A stretch of 18,416 nt of DNA from Hyphomicrobiales bacterium (GTDB lineage Bacteria > Pseudomonadota > Alphaproteobacteria > Rhizobiales > Aestuariivirgaceae): NCBI GenBank assembly GCA_025362535.1, contig JANYGE010000199.1:1-18416 (forward strand). The letters run 5' to 3'. The stretch's first letter is position 1, and every line of letters begins with the position of its first letter. The position numbers and the translations under genes were made by a program. Below, in pieces: positions 2,534 through 11,599 of this stretch. The notes beneath the pieces were generated by a model. That model saw nothing but the letters and a program-made list of their open reading frames with translations. It was not told the origin of the DNA and did not search any database.

Positions 2534-4051
2534 TCAAGCAAAGCCCGGAAAAAAATCTGTCTTAATGCGAGACTTGGCAATACCCAGTTCACCCAACACT
2601 TTTTGAAAACGAACCACCATGGCACGCGGGCCAGAGACGTAGAATATGCGGTCTTTAAAATCCGGCACCTCGCGCTTAATCAACGCTGCATCGATAAACC
2701 CGTGGTGCATATTTGAATGGGGCACTGCATCCTGCGCCACCGCATAAACTGTGCGCAGGCCCAATTCACGTTCGGCACGGTTAAATACATCGGCATAGGC
2801 AATTTCATTGGCTTTGTTGTTGCCATAGAGCAACACGGTGGAACGTTTATCTTGCGCATCCACCATCTGTTGGATCATGCTGCGAAACGGTGTAACCCCA
2901 ATGCCGCCTGCGATAAAAGCCAGCTTTTCATCTGGGTTCTTTGGCAGAACAAATTCTCCCGCCAATTGCGAAGCATAAATCTTGTCACCCGGCTTCAATG
3001 CCAAGAGTGATTGTTTGAAGGCGCTGGGATTGGCATAAAATTTCACGCCAAGCCGCAGTTCATTTTCACTCGGTGCCGAGGCAATAGTGAAACTGCGGCG
3101 ATTGCCGCGATTATCAGGGCTGCGCACAGGCATGGTCCAATCGAGATATTGGCCAGCGGCAAACCTAACCGGACGATTGGTTTTGAACACATAATCAAAG
3201 CAGCCAGCAGCCTGCTTCTCAATCCGGTCGAGTGTGAGCTTGAAGCGAAACTTCGGGCTCACCGCCCACGCAAAGAGATTCCCGACCAAAAAGGCCATTT
3301 CTGGCGTAAAATAGAATTCGCCAATATGGATATTTGGCGTGGAGATCGCACCCACAATCGCACCAAAGGCCAGACTCGGAAAAAGCGCTGCAGGTGCTGT
3401 GAGAGGCTCCGTCAACATTGCAAAGCCAGCAAACAACAGCGGCGAATAGAGGAAGCTTTGTGTGAAGGCTTCGCCATACATATCGGGCGTGTTGGTCAGC
3501 GCAGTCACCAGAAAATTGGCCAGCACATAGATGCCGAACATTTCAAAGCGTTGCACTTTGCGCAAGATGAGCAATCCACCAATGAGAACAATTGGCAGCA
3601 ATTCCAAATTGCCACCCACCCACCACGTGGCTGGTTGATCCAATAGGAAATAGGAAGCAACCACACCGACAGCCACCGGATTGAAAATATGCTTGCGATA
3701 AACAGCGAGCAAGAATTTTGATGCAATCGCCGCACCAGCGGCCAAGGCCAAACCTGAAAGCCCCGGCATATCAGCCGGCAGAACCGGAGGCATGATGAGG
3801 GCGAGAATAAACGCTGTAATATAAATCGATTCCGTGTTGGCCGGAACATTCAGCGCCCAGGCAAAGGCACGGTTCACCAGCCAGCACACACCTGTGATAA
3901 ACACGGTGGAGAAGGTCAGCGCCGCAGGATCATGCGGCACCAATCCAAAGAACCCCAGCACGAATGCCCCAACCAAAAGCGCCAGAACATAATAGAGCAC
4001 CAGCCGGTACATGGTGATGTGATTGAGAAAGCTGTCAATGCGATTGATCAT
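2534..4051 (-). CDS. RnfD/NqrB-like membrane domain fused to FAD/NAD(P)H oxidoreductase
   Basis: The protein has 505 residues in two parts. Residues 12-265 are a polytopic membrane domain of the NqrB/RnfD/RnfE family. Family marks are ALIMPPVLP (84-92), FNPVAVG (123-129), the LLPIVLIGGLLILRK helix (151-165) and MLTEPLTAP (212-220). Residues 270-505 are a ferredoxin-reductase-like module with the FAD site RRSFT (318-322), the glycine loop GGIGVTPF (382-389) for NAD(P)H, and a C-terminal SGP (473-475) where many relatives have CGP. No 2Fe-2S cysteine cluster is present, unlike NqrF. No SGAT-type flavinylation motif is found in the membrane part, unlike classical RnfD and NqrB. The ATG overlaps the apbE stop (ATGA), giving translational coupling. 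Inferred role: it takes electrons from cytosolic NAD(P)H and passes them through the membrane to the exported FMN-binding partner. The final acceptor is unknown. Confidence 0.88.
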   Translation of the reverse strand: MINRIDSFLNHITMYRLVLYYVLALLVGAFVLGFFGLVPHDPAALTFSTVFITGVCWLVNRAFAWALNVPANTESIYITAFILALIMPPVLPADMPGLSGLALAAGAAIASKFLLAVYRKHIFNPVAVGVVASYFLLDQPATWWVGGNLELLPIVLIGGLLILRKVQRFEMFGIYVLANFLVTALTNTPDMYGEAFTQSFLYSPLLFAGFAMLTEPLTAPAALFPSLAFGAIVGAISTPNIHIGEFYFTPEMAFLVGNLFAWAVSPKFRFKLTLDRIEKQAAGCFDYVFKTNRPVRFAAGQYLDWTMPVRSPDNRGNRRSFTIASAPSENELRLGVKFYANPSAFKQSLLALKPGDKIYASQLAGEFVLPKNPDEKLAFIAGGIGVTPFRSMIQQMVDAQDKRSTVLLYGNNKANEIAYADVFNRAERELGLRTVYAVAQDAVPHSNMHHGFIDAALIKREVPDFKDRIFYVSGPRAMVVRFQKVLGELGIAKSRIKTDFFPGFA

Positions 4052-4791
4052 GATATAACATAAGCTCCAAAGCCTGTGGTTTGCGTTGCAATGCCACTGG
4101 CGTTCACCACATAACCTTCAAAGCCAGGCAGGGTTTCAATAAAATAAATACCGTCTTCACCCATGGCAAAAGCCGCTGTGGCAAAACGATCCGCTTCTAA
4201 AACATCAGGCCCAATCACCGTCAGGCTTACAATATCTTTGATTTTTTCTTGGGGCTGATGCGGATTATAAATATGCTGCCCACGCACATAGGTGCCCGAA
4301 GTGGCTATGCCCTGGCTTTGCAGAGCAACCGCCTTGATAATATCCTGATCATTAAAGGGGCTGCGGATGCCCACTCGCCAGGCTTCTCCGGCGCCGTTCA
4401 TGCCAGCCGTTTGAATATCACCGCCCGCTTCGACATAGAAATTTTGCGCGCCCGCTTCACCAATCAACCGAGCCACATTGCGCACCGCCCAGCCTTTGAC
4501 AATTCCCGATGGATCAACGGTGCCATCAGCCCGCCGCATATCAAAATAACCATGGCTTGCCTTTTCCGTCGCAGCAGCGAGCTGAAACACTTCGCACATT
4601 TCTGCACTTCGTCTTTCATTGGAAATCTCACCCCGATTATACGCACTGATCTCGCTATCTTTTTTGTAGGTGCTAAATTTTTGATCAACACTTACAAAAT
4701 ATTCAAACGCCCGCTCAACCACATCGGCTGAGACCACATCAACGATCTCCACCGTAATTGGCATGCCCATAATGATGCGGGTGTCGCGCAT
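4048..4791 (-). CDS. apbE: ApbE-family FAD:protein FMN transferase (no export signal)
   Basis: ApbE enzymes cleave FAD and attach FMN through a phosphoester bond to Thr or Ser of SGAT-type motifs. This 247-residue protein shows the fold markers in order: MGMPITVEI (8-16), DPSGIVKGWA (93-102), EAGGDI (121-126), the IATSGTY loop (162-168), HIYNP (173-177) and ADRFATAAFAMG (200-211) with a likely Mg-binding Asp201. It starts directly at the beginning of the fold. There is no signal peptide or lipobox, and the upstream frame closes at a TGA after eight codons, so none can be added. Most ApbE proteins acting on Rnf/Nqr partners are exported, so this is unusual. The gene overlaps the FMN-binding gene (TAATG) and the downstream fusion gene (ATGA). 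The obvious substrate is the FMN-binding protein encoded immediately upstream. Confidence 0.9.
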   Translation of the reverse strand: MRDTRIIMGMPITVEIVDVVSADVVERAFEYFVSVDQKFSTYKKDSEISAYNRGEISNERRSAEMCEVFQLAAATEKASHGYFDMRRADGTVDPSGIVKGWAVRNVARLIGEAGAQNFYVEAGGDIQTAGMNGAGEAWRVGIRSPFNDQDIIKAVALQSQGIATSGTYVRGQHIYNPHQPQEKIKDIVSLTVIGPDVLEADRFATAAFAMGEDGIYFIETLPGFEGYVVNASGIATQTTGFGAYVIS

Positions 4792-5219
4792 TACTTTGCC
4801 GAAAGAACCAGTGCATCATGCAGCGATGCAATATAGGCCCGGCTCGTCAATGTGGCACCGGAAATAATATTCACGCGAGAGGTTTGTTTAGCCACCACTT
4901 CCTGCAATAAATAAGGCAGTGCTTGCCGATTGATCGAACGGCTGGTGCCACTGTGATTGGGAAATTTTAGCGCCTGCACATCGACGATAGTGCCACCCTG
5001 CACCACAGCTTTCACCTGCACAACGCCATAATAGGCATCGTAAATCCGCCCCATAAATTCGCCGTCATGCAAAACCGCCGTTGCTTTAGCGTCCTGCACA
5101 GTTGCATCCACAATTGTGTTTTGGTCTGCTGGTAAGGCAGGCTGAGCGGCCCAAGCCTGTCCCAATTGAACAGCCACAGTTGAAAGCAAACTGGCTGCAA
5201 GTTTCGCCGTAATTTTCAT
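4791..5219 (-). CDS. Exported FMN-binding protein (NqrC/RnfG-like domain) with flavinylation motif
   Basis: This is a small protein of 142 residues. It opens with a Sec-type signal peptide: Lys2 and Lys6, a hydrophobic core at about 7-22, and a likely cleavage after AWA at 24. The remainder is a single FMN-binding domain (YYGVVQVKAVVQGGTIVDV, then LKFPNHSGTS) ending with NIISGATLTSRAY. There the SGAT at 120-123 is the classical attachment site and Thr123 the expected acceptor of covalent FMN. Unlike NqrC and RnfG it has no clear membrane anchor beyond the signal sequence. I prefer the ATG at 5219; a TTG at 5228 would add three residues. It is the first gene of the operon with apbE and the RnfD-reductase fusion. 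Inferred role: periplasmic electron carrier that receives electrons from the fusion protein. Confidence 0.85.
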   Translation of the reverse strand: MKITAKLAASLLSTVAVQLGQAWAAQPALPADQNTIVDATVQDAKATAVLHDGEFMGRIYDAYYGVVQVKAVVQGGTIVDVQALKFPNHSGTSRSINRQALPYLLQEVVAKQTSRVNIISGATLTSRAYIASLHDALVLSAK

Positions 5220-5241
5220 GATTATCAAATCTCATAATGTG

Positions 5242-5341: not shown

Positions 5342-6103
5342 TTAACTCTTGAGCCGATATCCCGTGCGGAAGATCCACGATACGATTGCCAAGCAAATAA
5401 CCAGAAACAACGCCGTCATGCCAAGGCTAACCGCAAGGCTCACATCTGCCACTTCATAAAAGCTCCAACGAAAGCCGCTGATTAAATACACCACCGGATT
5501 AAACAGCGAAACCTTCTGCCAGAATTCTGGCAACACGCTGATCGAATAAAAGCTCCCGCCCAAGAACGTAAGAGGTGTGATGATCAATAGCGGGATAATT
5601 TGCAATTTTTCAAACCCATCCGCCCACAGTCCAATGATAAATCCAAAGAGCGAGAACGTCAGTGCGGTGAGCAACAAAAACAGCGCGGCCCAAAATGGAT
5701 GCGCCACTGTAACTGGCACAAAGAATGCGCTCGTGGCCAGAATAACCAAGCCAATCAAAATTGATTTGGCCGCCGCCGCTCCAACAAAACCTAAAACCAT
5801 TTCAAATGCCGAAATCGGTGCCGATAAATACTCATAAATCGTCCCTGAAAAACGCGGAAAATAAATCCCGAACGAGGCGTTGGAAATACTTTGCGTGAGG
5901 ATCGACAGCATGATGAGGCCCGGCACAATAAATGCACCATAAGACACCCCTTCAATCTCGGAAATGCGCCCACCAATGGCTGCACCAAATACGATAAAAT
6001 AGAGCACCGTCGAAATCACCGGAGAAATCAGGCTCTGAAACAGCGTGCGGAAAAACCGCTTCATCTCATAAGTGAAGATTGCAACAATAGCGCGCCAGTT
6101 CAT
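5342..6103 (-). CDS. ABC-2 type transporter permease (YadH-like)
   Basis: This 253-residue integral membrane protein has about six hydrophobic segments (roughly 22-44, 55-76, 103-127, 133-160, 168-190 and 225-247). The cytosolic amphipathic start [18 protein letters not shown] is typical of ABC-2 permeases. [14 protein letters not shown] (161-174), [14 protein letters not shown] and [12 protein letters not shown] are recurring family segments of the YadH/NodJ group. It pairs with the ATPase gene directly upstream through an ATGA overlap, forming one exporter of two permeases plus two ATPases. The substrate is unknown. Glycan, drug or lipid export are all seen in this family, and the nearby glycosyltransferases are only a weak hint toward glycans. 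Confidence 0.88.
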
Positions 6104-7020
6104 TGCTTCACCAATCCCATAAAAATATCTTCGAGCGAGTTTTGTTCCGTGTGCAGATCACTATAGCTGATCTTGGCCGTATCAATTTCTTTCAACAGCC
6201 CAGATATATCTGGTCGGCCCTCGCGTGCGTCAAAGGCATAAGATAATTCATTGCCATCTTTGCTGAGGGACAAATTGAATTTCGATAATTTCTTCGGCAC
6301 AGCAGCCAGCGGCTTATCCAACACAAGGGTAAGCTTCTTTTGCCCCATCTTCTTCATAAGAGCATTTTTATCTTCAACTAAAATCATCTGGCCCTTGTTA
6401 ATCACACCCACACGGTCTGCCATTTCTTCGGCTTCTTCGATGTAATGCGTGGTGAGAATAATGGTGACACCTGTGCTGCGCAATTCCCGCACCACATTCC
6501 ACATGTCTTTACGCAGCTCCACATCAACGCCAGCTGTTGGTTCATCGAGAAATAAAATCTGCGGCTCATGCGCCAAAGCCTTGGCAATCAAAACCCGTCG
6601 CTTCATGCCACCTGAAAGCGTCATGATTTTATCATCTTTTTTATCCCACAGCGAAAGCTGCTTGAGAATTTTCTCAACATGCTGCGGGCTGTCGCCACGG
6701 CCAAAAAGCTTCCGGCTAAACGTCACCGTGTCCCACACAGATTCGAAAATACTTAAGTGAAGTTCCTGCGGCACCAGCCCAATCATTTTGCGCGTGGCGC
6801 GAAAATCCGTCACATTGTCATGGCCATCCACCAGCACAGCGCCGGATGTCTTATTCACAATGCCACAAATCGTAGAAATCAACGTCGTCTTCCCCGCCCC
6901 ATTGGGTCCGAGCAAAGCAAAGATTTCTCCACGCATAATCTCAAGGTTGATATCTTTGAGGGCGTGAAGACCAGATTTATAGGATTTGGAAAGGCTTTTG
7001 ATTTGGATGATAGGGTTCAT
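6100..7020 (-). CDS. ABC transporter ATP-binding protein (YadG-like)
   Basis: This 306-residue ATPase drives the ABC-2 permease encoded just downstream. It shows a Walker [10 protein letters not shown] (about 39-47), a Q-loop at VPQELH, the signature LSGGMKRRV, a Walker [13 protein letters not shown] and the switch His in TTHYIEEAE. The last 90 residues form the accessory C-terminal region usual in the YadG/CcmA-like group of about 300-residue exporter ATPases. No Shine-Dalgarno is evident in front of the ATG at 7020, and the upstream 189 bases (7021-7209) separate it from a divergent GT2 gene; I see no convincing promoter there. The permease gene starts within the last codons through an ATGA overlap. 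Confidence 0.92.
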
Positions 7021-7209
7021 GAAAGGAAGAATAGCAGACTGGTATGAAAATGGACATATTCAAAATACAATTGTTCCATCCCTTTTACTTTGAGTTCAAA
7101 CAGCTTGCAGGTCGTGTTACTTTGGCAGATTGATTGCAACTGTGCTAACAACCAAAAGCCGCATCGTGCAATCGGGCGTTTTTCGTCATACAACTGAGCT
7201 TAGGGTTTT

Positions 7210-7977
7210 GTGAATTATTCCGTTATTATTCCGGCTTACAATGCCGAAGCCACGCTTGAGAGAACGCTGGCTTCAATCAAGCAGCAAACCTTCCGCGTTT
7301 CCGAAGTGGTTCTCGTCAATGACGGTAGCACCGATGGAACGCGTTCAATTGCTGAAAGATGGTTGAATCGACTTCCCTTGATTATTGTTGATCAATCAAA
7401 AAACCGTGGCCTAACCCAGGCCCTCATAGACGGTGTCACAGCGAGTAAATGCGATTGGATTCTTCGGATAGACTCGGATGATTTTTGGGATTCGAACCAT
7501 GTGAAAATTATCGATGAGCTACGTTGTAATTCTAATGCAGTGCTTATAAGCACTCAAACGCGATTTGTTGACGTTGATGGTAATTTAATCAGTTTCACTG
7601 GAGCGCCGAATCCTAAACGCATCCGTGCTAAACTTATGTTTGGCAATCACATGTGCCACTCCGCTGTGGCATTTTCAAAGAAAGCTTATCATAAAGCAGG
7701 TGGTTATCGTCTTTCAGTCAAATGGGAAGATTACGATCTTTGGATAAGACTTCTGAGCGTGGGTGACTTTCAAACGACAAGCACGGTTACCGTCAGCAAT
7801 CTTATCCGTTCAAACTCAATATATCACAGCACCGATTTACGTGCGAGGCAGTTGGCCGATATTCATTGCAACCTCTTAGCCATCAAATTGTTTTGGATGC
7901 AGCACCCACTCCAAGCAATAAGACGAATTCTAAGCTTGGGCATTCATAAATTCTCACTGTCGTTCAAGCAAAAGTAG
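7210..7977 (+). CDS. Glycosyltransferase family 2 protein
   Basis: This 255-residue GT-A type glycosyltransferase starts with GTG at 7210, preceded by AGGG. It opens with SVIIPAYNAEATLERTLASI (4-23), then VLVNDGSTDGT (34-44) binding the nucleotide, ILRIDSDDFWD (84-94) with the metal-binding D-x-D, and WEDYDLWIRL near residue 177, whose acidic pair is the usual catalytic base region. There is no transmembrane segment, so it is a cytosolic or peripheral enzyme that adds a sugar to a lipid-linked oligosaccharide or LPS core. Donor sugar and linkage cannot be told. The gene is AT-rich like the other glycosyltransferase genes here. Its TAG directly abuts the end of a broken GT11 gene on the opposite strand, so the locus was probably larger and has eroded. 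Confidence 0.85.
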   Translation: MNYSVIIPAYNAEATLERTLASIKQQTFRVSEVVLVNDGSTDGTRSIAERWLNRLPLIIVDQSKNRGLTQALIDGVTASKCDWILRIDSDDFWDSNHVKIIDELRCNSNAVLISTQTRFVDVDGNLISFTGAPNPKRIRAKLMFGNHMCHSAVAFSKKAYHKAGGYRLSVKWEDYDLWIRLLSVGDFQTTSTVTVSNLIRSNSIYHSTDLRARQLADIHCNLLAIKLFWMQHPLQAIRRILSLGIHKFSLSFKQK

Positions 7978-10583: not shown

Positions 10584-11599
10584 GTGGCCTCGAAGGGGTA
10601 AATCTGCGTGGCACCCTTTTGCACTACGCACATCACTTTGAAAAGCTCGCCCATCTGGGCGGCATCAATAAGGCGATGGGTAGCCGCCAGAAAATTCTTT
10701 TTTTCTTCGCCGTCCAGTTTTTCGGCAAGTTTTTCAGTGCGCATCACAATGCCCATAGCCTTAAGAAAGCTGCCTTGGCTGAGCGTAGGGGAACTGCTCA
10801 ATTTTGAAAAATCAACATGCGACGTAATATCCACCTCACCGGGCGCATCAAGAATACTGCAATATTTATGCCTGTGCATGGCCTGCACCGTGTCTCCAGC
10901 CGCAGATTGCACATGGCCATAATCAATAATCAGAGCAGCCCCACCACAGGCCTCAATGCGTTCTTTCATCTCTGCCGCAATATTCTGTGAAACTTGCGAG
11001 ACTTCATAGACCCCATCAGCTCCACCCGGCCAAGATGAAGCCACCAAACCCATTTTCAACTGGCCATTTGAAACACCAACATAGCGCTCAAAGCTTTGCC
11101 CAGAGCGCATTTCAAATTGCTGCACTGGCAAAGCATCAAAAAATTCGTTGGCGATAAAAAGCGTCGGCATATTGGGCAGGCTCTCAAGGCTTGCATGCCA
11201 CGTAGCATGGGCATCCAGTTTTTCACGCTGCAGTTTTTGCAACACCGGGCTCATCTCCACAAAATGAACATCAACGGCCTTCAAAAACTCAGGGGCTGCC
11301 TTGGCGGCGCGCAACAGATCAGCCATCAAAGTGCCACGCCCCGGCCCCATCTCAACCAAAGCAAAAGGCGATGGTTGCCCCAAACTCATCCACGCATTCA
11401 CACACCACACGCCAATCATCTCTCCAAACACTTGGGAAATTTCCGGCGCTGTGGTGAAATCACCCGCAGCTCCAAAGGGGTCACGCGTCATGTAATAGCC
11501 ATGCTGTGGATGGCCAAGGCACAGGCTCATATAACGGTCGAGAGGCATCGGCCCTTCCGCCTCAATCATCTCGATTATGATCTTCTCAAGCGCGGTCAC
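10580..11599 (-). CDS. SAM-dependent methyltransferase, MidA/NDUFAF7 family
   Basis: This 339-residue class I methyltransferase is of the DUF185 family, related to mitochondrial NDUFAF7, which dimethylates an arginine of respiratory complex I subunit NDUFS2. The family-specific N-terminus is clear: GPMPLDRYM, HPQHGYYMTRDPFGAAGDF and TTAPEISQVFGEMIG (49-63), then the SAM-binding loop LVEMGPGRGTLMADLL (81-96). Alphaproteobacterial relatives are presumed to act in complex I assembly, though that is inference from the mitochondrial protein. It overlaps lgt by 14 bases upstream and pgeF by 4 bases downstream. Confidence 0.93.
   Translation of the reverse strand: MTALEKIIIEMIEAEGPMPLDRYMSLCLGHPQHGYYMTRDPFGAAGDFTTAPEISQVFGEMIGVWCVNAWMSLGQPSPFALVEMGPGRGTLMADLLRAAKAAPEFLKAVDVHFVEMSPVLQKLQREKLDAHATWHASLESLPNMPTLFIANEFFDALPVQQFEMRSGQSFERYVGVSNGQLKMGLVASSWPGGADGVYEVSQVSQNIAAEMKERIEACGGAALIIDYGHVQSAAGDTVQAMHRHKYCSILDAPGEVDITSHVDFSKLSSSPTLSQGSFLKAMGIVMRTEKLAEKLDGEEKKNFLAATHRLIDAAQMGELFKVMCVVQKGATQIYPFEAT

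Follow-up and report, generated by a model that had tools for sequence, protein, structure and literature searches.

The stretch of DNA analysed here (the window, 18,416 nucleotides of contig JANYGE010000199.1 in assembly GCA_025362535.1, from a Hyphomicrobiales bacterium) carries a cassette of three overlapping minus-strand genes, which encode a putatively exported flavin mononucleotide (FMN) protein of the FMN_bind family, an ApbE-type FAD:protein FMN transferase (FAD, flavin adenine dinucleotide) and a fusion of an NqrB/RnfD-like membrane domain with a FAD/NAD(P)H reductase. The cassette is a new member of the published NQR/RNF-like family and, taken as a whole, is very likely a complete minimal electron-export system. 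Its ApbE is short and has no leader, and the FMN may be attached in the cytoplasm before the substrate is exported.

The genes for the FMN protein (4791..5219) and ApbE (4048..4791) overlap by 1 nt (TAATG), and those for ApbE and the fusion (2534..4051) by 4 nt (ATGA); the Pfam matches to FMN_bind, ApbE, NQR2_RnfD_RnfE and NAD_binding_1 all score above cut-off. An earlier note on this DNA had described three overlapping genes at these positions, encoding an exported protein with an SGAT flavinylation motif, an ApbE and a NqrB/RnfD-reductase fusion. This description is borne out by the open reading frames (ORFs) and their overlaps, the Pfam matches, the motif and a putative signal peptide; the missing leader of the ApbE had gone unnoticed.

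A short ApbE without a leader

The ApbE is 247 amino acids long, matches the Pfam ApbE family at 4.7e-40, and combines a predicted ApbE T-fold with the conserved residues of the family. Only 7 residues stand ahead of the MGMP strand, and an in-frame stop lies 9 codons upstream of the ATG. The predicted model, with a predicted local distance difference test (pLDDT) score of 93.7, opens with a strand at residues 2-7; in the numbering of the entries, the counterpart of residue 1 is residue 46 in T. maritima ApbE, 42 in Listeria FmnB and 24 in V. cholerae ApbE. Because of this start context, and of a predicted fold that begins at residue 1-2, the leader is to be read as missing, not misread, and neither the signal peptide nor the lipobox of canonical periplasmic ApbEs is present.

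The short form is common to the relatives. In 117 of the 120 best ApbE relatives, MGMP is preceded by 7 to 9 residues, and in the remaining three by 0, 10 and 23; a crude heuristic finds a signal-peptide-like stretch in none of the 120. Of the 52 ApbEs from cassette loci, 35 begin at most 10 residues from the MGMP motif, 9 have a longer first-start reading yet hold a Met 7 or 8 residues before it, 5 are cut by contig ends, and 3 are without MGMP; of these, L062 and L063 begin shortly ahead of a degenerate version of the motif, and L042 could not be assigned a position. K99, H173, D201 and T205, which are taken here to be the active-site residues, are invariant across the 52 rows, and this assignment fits the PDB alignment. 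The match to the ApbE profile leaves out about 45-50 positions following position 74-76; these probably belong to the helical insert known from T. maritima ApbE (PMC12052999).

As a control, the leader heuristic was applied to 37 ApbEs from other loci, of which it flags 18; by eye, it misses five leader-bearing proteins (L115, L117, L130, L140, L173) and wrongly flags two leaderless-looking ones (L121, L128). A second alphaproteobacterial class of ApbE was seen in this set, full-length and leaderless by eye, with a start ...RHALNGPTMGTRW or similar (L120-L125, L128, L129, L131, L146-L148).

The exported FMN_bind substrate

The FMN protein (142 amino acids, PF04205 at 1.1e-7) is an extracytosolic subunit of the NqrC/RnfG type, read from the ATG at 5219, with an in-frame TTG also at 5228. 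Its profile, built from 45 relatives, matches three solved FMN-binding sequences, the best being 8p2a_A at 5.9e-23, while the hhalign match to E. coli RsxG is weak (probability 5.6) and covers the motif region only. The flavinylation motif SGAT lies at residues 120-123 (4851..4862, minus strand; context NIISGATLTS) and corresponds to the 7-residue motif of PMC12052999, section 8; the pattern [SGT]GA[TS] is present in all 120 relatives.

Residues 1-24 (5148..5219) look like a Sec-type signal peptide, as judged from sequence and a single crude heuristic, with cleavage near A24/A25 by eye. The same heuristic finds a signal-peptide-like stretch in 113 of the 120 relatives, and the remaining 7 look mostly truncated or misstarted. 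There is no twin arginine in the signal of the window's FMN protein, and RR occurs within the first 20 residues of 4/120 relatives. Two Parcubacteria loci, L043 and L046, have two FMN_bind genes each; one adjoins the fusion gene, and the other precedes it on the opposite strand, 6.5 kb away in L043 and 2.7 kb away in L046.

The number of ApbE and FMN_bind genes per genome was also considered. The window's own genome (2.80 Mb, 92.8% complete) encodes one ApbE and a single FMN_bind protein, the exported one of the cassette, and gave no match to the EetB-type FAD exporter family PF07456. Fifteen other relatives have a fusion match, and 14 of these were examined for ApbE, the one left out (G008) having none in the profile search of 120 relatives' genomes, where any ApbE was found in 54. 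In all 14, the only ApbE is of the cassette type, interrupted in some by contig ends. Exactly one FMN_bind match, adjoining the cassette ApbE, is present in 13 of them; the fourteenth (G022) has no FMN_bind, and its cassette sits at a contig edge. In 28 further genomes reached through the loci, the short ApbE is present in 27 and no ApbE in one (G163); a full-length ApbE occurs in addition in 4 of the 27 (Oricola, Rhodospirillales 70-18, Thioclava and Solirhodobacter), and G173 has an additional ApbE match under the cut-off. Thus, 38 of the 42 genomes with a cassette-type ApbE have no other ApbE above cut-off, the 28 further genomes being of unstated completeness.

The membrane domain-reductase fusion

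The fusion of 505 amino acids comprises a membrane domain at residues 1-266 (3254..4051, minus strand; PF03116 at 1e-7, 32.1 bits against a cut-off of 27.7) and a FAD- and NAD(P)H-binding reductase domain at residues 267-505 (2534..3253, minus strand; PF00175 at 2.9e-17). The best 120 of its 6234 relatives cover 97-100% of its length. Its best PDB sequence matches are the FAD domains of NqrF, which align with the reductase half, and the AlphaFold2 model has a pLDDT of 89.5. When this model was compared with known folds, the 50 matches listed were all reductases, the reductase domain having filled the list, with no NqrB/RnfD chain among them.

The membrane domain is an NqrB/RnfD homologue as judged by profile comparison. 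A profile of 28 sequences matches RnfD 8ahx_D at 1.2e-5 and NqrB 7xk3_B at 9.3e-5, together with two near-copies of the latter, and up to E=1 its PDB relatives are RnfD/NqrB only (4 distinct sequences); comparison with E. coli RsxD by hhalign gave a probability of 92.5 over 103 columns. The earlier note had held that its reading would fall if the membrane part failed to align with this family, and the profiles match RnfD, NqrB and RsxD alike.

The covalent flavin site of NqrB/RnfD is missing from this domain. The pattern [STG]GA[ST] does not occur within the first 290 residues in any of 74 fusion rows, and T142, which is T in 59/74 and S in 10/74, has no GA context. In the alignment with NqrB 9lrr_B, residues 46-99 pair with 132-181 and residues 171-261 with 302-393, so that the cassette protein is about 50 residues shorter than NqrB between the two blocks, an estimate made uncertain by the first block (independent E-value 18). 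The flavinylated Thr236 of NqrB presumably lies in the stretch that is shortened here. In the gap-free stretch of the 9lrr_B alignment, the two gate phenylalanines of NqrB (PMC12174285) have counterparts in the fusion: F338 corresponds to F207, which is F in 74/74 rows, and F342 to A211, which is A in 70/74. An iron-sulfur cluster in the fusion was considered and rejected, Cys being present in more than half of the 74 rows at two positions only. With regard to a possible bis-histidine heme, H121 is invariant in the 74 rows, and H242 is kept in 71.

Absence of the other Rnf and Nqr subunits

The own genome was searched for the partners of an ordinary RNF or NQR complex. No match was found to PF02508 (RnfA/E, NqrD/E), for which the same search was positive in 4 of 14 control genomes, nor to PF13375 (RnfC_N), and PF03116 matches the fusion only, genome-wide, leaving no second RnfD/NqrB. 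These results cover the families searched in a genome that is 92.8% complete, RnfB and a separate NqrF lying outside the search. One partial match to PF05896 (NQRA_N), just above cut-off, was rejected as NqrA, since by eye the ORF looks like an E2 acyltransferase of the lipoyl type. An ordinary Rnf/Nqr complex elsewhere in the genome was thus rejected for PF02508, PF13375 and PF03116, and the cassette does not belong to the six-subunit RNF/NQR complexes. The statement of the earlier note that RnfA/E, NqrD/E and RnfC are lacking holds genome-wide in these Pfam searches, and rnf or nqr genes that would complete a complex, the finding it had named as fatal to its proposal, did not turn up among the families searched.

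Conservation and distribution of the cassette

Of 150 relatives' genomes, counting the own one, 16 have a fusion match; in G008, it covers the reductase half only, at 33% identity, and some other matches are cut by a contig end. Two short patterns retrieved at least 54 contigs with the fusion, and these together with 4 further ones make up the 58 loci examined, in which L014 and L031 represent one gene. The order FMN protein-ApbE-fusion on a single strand is kept in 45 of the 58. The exceptions are one locus with the order ApbE-FMN protein-fusion, five with ApbE and fusion where the contig is cut upstream, five with FMN protein and fusion without an adjoining ApbE, and two with neither gene, one of which is cut. 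The same fusion beside FMN_bind and ApbE, which the earlier note had proposed to look for in other genomes, is therefore found in identical order in most of the loci. The cassette is not a chance arrangement, since the fusion relatives are near full-length and the gene order is retained.

The holders include Alphaproteobacteria such as Hyphomicrobiales, Devosia, Kaistia, Oricola, Thioclava, Acetobacteraceae and Rhodospirillales, as well as Patescibacteria and records titled only 'bacterium'. In a tree of 53 rows, 28 alphaproteobacterial rows stand apart from 25 Patescibacteria/'bacterium' rows, with a support of 100 in the Shimodaira-Hasegawa-like approximate likelihood ratio test. The tree, unrooted and made by a quick method, leaves out six loci and has no actinobacterial members; a single ancient transfer between the two sides is one of several histories that would fit it. 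Three plasmid records match the fusion, and the one from Mesorhizobium covers positions 1 to 504 of the query and has an annotated ApbE.

Place of flavin attachment and direction of electron flow

The puzzle posed by these genomes is that the only flavin transferase found in many of them looks cytoplasmic, while its substrate is exported. Since a leaderless sole ApbE adjoins a Sec-exported substrate, it is proposed here as the simplest reading, tentatively and as something short of probable, that the short ApbE attaches the FMN in the cytoplasm, that flavinylation would precede Sec export of the FMN protein, and that no export of FAD to the periplasm would be needed. Truncated cytosolic forms of ApbE are active, and the 7-residue motif is sufficient (PMC12052999). 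ApbEs are typically periplasmic lipoproteins, and a periplasmic location is essential in Salmonella (PMC12052999), which speaks for another reading, in which an unrecognised route takes the leaderless ApbE to the periplasm and the FMN is attached there, as is usual; this is unlikely in view of a predicted fold that begins at residue 1-2 and of 120 relatives without a signal-peptide-like stretch. An extracytosolic ApbE moreover requires an extracytosolic source of FAD (PMC9973259), and how FAD gets to ApbE is called still obscure (PMC12052999); PF07456, the FAD exporter family with a role in Listeria (PMC9973259), has no match in the own genome. That the cassette ApbE mainly serves another, cytosolic protein has a precedent in the cytosolic ApbE of Klebsiella (PMC12052999) and is rather improbable here, the sole FMN_bind protein of the own genome being the exported one (substrate families beyond FMN_bind lay outside the search), the single FMN_bind gene standing next to the cassette ApbE in 13 of 14 relatives, and the ApbE gene overlapping that of the exported substrate.

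Several points weigh against the explanation of the cassette as a whole, flavinylation before export included. The passage of a flavinylated chain through Sec is an assumption, though a study of SecYEG pore size with bulky conjugates reportedly found such groups to be tolerated. The leader heuristic is crude, with both misses and false flags among the 37 control ApbEs. By eye, about a dozen of these 37 are full-length and leaderless ApbEs of other alphaproteobacterial genomes, so the cassette is not alone in having an ApbE without a leader. A full-length ApbE is additionally present in 4 of the 42 genomes. The first residue of the window's motif is N, not D, and in a model substrate the change of this D to A had minor effects only (PMC12052999). 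The literature search found no biochemistry on this cassette, and neither pre-export flavinylation nor a leaderless ApbE with an exported substrate was met in the titles and abstract openings, mostly of open-access literature, that it covered.

In the proposed electron path, the FAD of the reductase domain, on the cytoplasmic side, would take electrons from NAD(P)H, and the NqrB/RnfD-like domain would conduct them across the membrane, most likely by way of the non-covalent flavin of published proposals, which also give the outward direction. The FMN, bound covalently to the SGAT threonine by the cassette's own ApbE, would receive the electrons, and the exported protein would hand them on to an extracytosolic acceptor. 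The outward limb of NQR/RNF is the intramembrane [2Fe-2S] cluster of NqrD-E/RnfA-E, and NqrB/RnfD forms the inward return limb, from FMN to riboflavin and to an acceptor on the cytoplasmic side (PMC12174285). The cassette holds only the return-limb subunit, and therefore this limb runs backwards if the flow is outward. The compression suggested by the earlier note, into two proteins and a maturase without the normal partners, accordingly stands in its parts list; the outward path would not be shortened, the return-limb subunit being reversed instead.

Inward flow, from an extracytosolic donor by way of the FMN protein and the fusion to NAD(P)+, appears improbable, with no donor enzyme recurring beside the cassette in the clustered loci. 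NAD+ is, in addition, a low-potential acceptor. Such a flow would agree with the role of NqrB/RnfD in NQR/RNF, which carries electrons from the periplasmic FMN to riboflavin near the cytoplasm (PMC12174285), and reversal is possible in principle for such systems (PMC8238504), where outward flow is favoured (PMC8238504; PMC11334425). Ion pumping as in NQR/RNF is suggested by the homology of the membrane domain to NqrB, a proposed Na+ path (PMC12174285), and by the equivalent of the gate residue F338, kept as F throughout the 74 rows. At the position of the other gate residue, F342, nearly all of them have A, A at either gate residue lowers the voltage by 30% in NQR (PMC12174285), and NqrD-E/RnfA-E has no match in the own genome, which together leave pumping quite improbable; the gate-residue pattern makes conserved pumping less likely and is no proof.

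Gene neighbourhood

An acceptor drawn from the neighbourhood was rejected, since nothing beyond the cassette recurs across the clustered groups, though many contigs are short. Just upstream of the cassette in the window, at 5342-7020, lie genes for an ABC-2 permease (NCBIfam PRK15066) and a DrrA-like ATPase, the permease being found beside the cassette in six close relatives only among the clustered loci; directly downstream, at 1033-2504, are two convergent glycosyltransferase family 25 genes of about 245 amino acids each. In Kaistia (L023), a two-component system of a 2CSK_N sensor kinase and a response regulator (5623-7625, Pfam-checked) diverges from the cassette, which is followed by a cytochrome b561 gene (10652-11152). 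Clustering alone places comparable kinases or regulators upstream in L032, L037, L038, L039 and L070. In four close relatives, a gene about 3.6 kb ahead of that for the fusion (L020, 5367-5915) encodes a protein that by eye looks like an exported cupredoxin.

Comparison with known systems

The module is not novel, having been defined previously (PMC8238504) and modelled (PMC11334425). Meheust 2021 (PMC8238504) described the NQR/RNF-like system as a protein with an N-terminal PF03116 and a C-terminal PF00175 domain in a flavinylation gene cluster, with 127 clusters in 127 genomes, primarily of Actinobacteria and the candidate phyla radiation, and proposed it to be unidirectional from NAD(P)H. 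Huang 2024 (PMC11334425) noted only two apparent subunits and the loss of the NqrB/RnfD Thr, and in the modelled Ktedonobacter complex, the exported flavinylation site adjoins an apparent non-covalent flavin site, giving a two-subunit outward path. The cassette shares with this system the PF03116-PF00175 single protein, one putatively exported FMN_bind subunit from an adjoining, overlapping gene (by sequence and the crude heuristic), the nearby ApbE, a membrane domain without the flavinylated Thr in 74/74 rows, and the lack of other Nqr/Rnf subunits among the families searched. It differs in its alphaproteobacterial host from the system of PMC8238504, and the short leaderless ApbE is not discussed in the main-text parts of PMC8238504 and PMC11334425 considered.

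Like RNF and NQR, the cassette has a homologous RnfD/NqrB part, an FMN_bind subunit comparable to RnfG/NqrC and an NqrF-like reductase. It differs from them in that searches found neither RnfA/E-NqrD/E nor RnfC, that the fusion lacks a conserved Cys cluster and the second covalent FMN site, and that the return-limb subunit apparently runs outward. The ApbE differs from the canonical periplasmic lipoproteins of E. coli, V. cholerae and T. maritima in having no leader or lipobox, about 45-50 fewer profile positions, and 247 amino acids against 328-352 (PMC12052999, Table 1). It resembles the Klebsiella ApbE for soluble fumarate reductase in having no signal peptide, whereas the substrate of the latter is a soluble cytoplasmic enzyme and that of the cassette is exported (PMC12052999).

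Pre-export flavinylation may extend across the NQR/RNF-like members of Alphaproteobacteria and Patescibacteria. Studies of ApbE mostly presuppose that the enzyme is periplasmic and is supplied with FAD there. Should flavin be loaded ahead of Sec export, this family would have no such supply problem, and proteins carrying covalent flavin could be completed in the cytoplasm and sent out afterwards. What is added here to the published NQR/RNF-like family is its many alphaproteobacterial members and the short, leaderless form of their ApbE.

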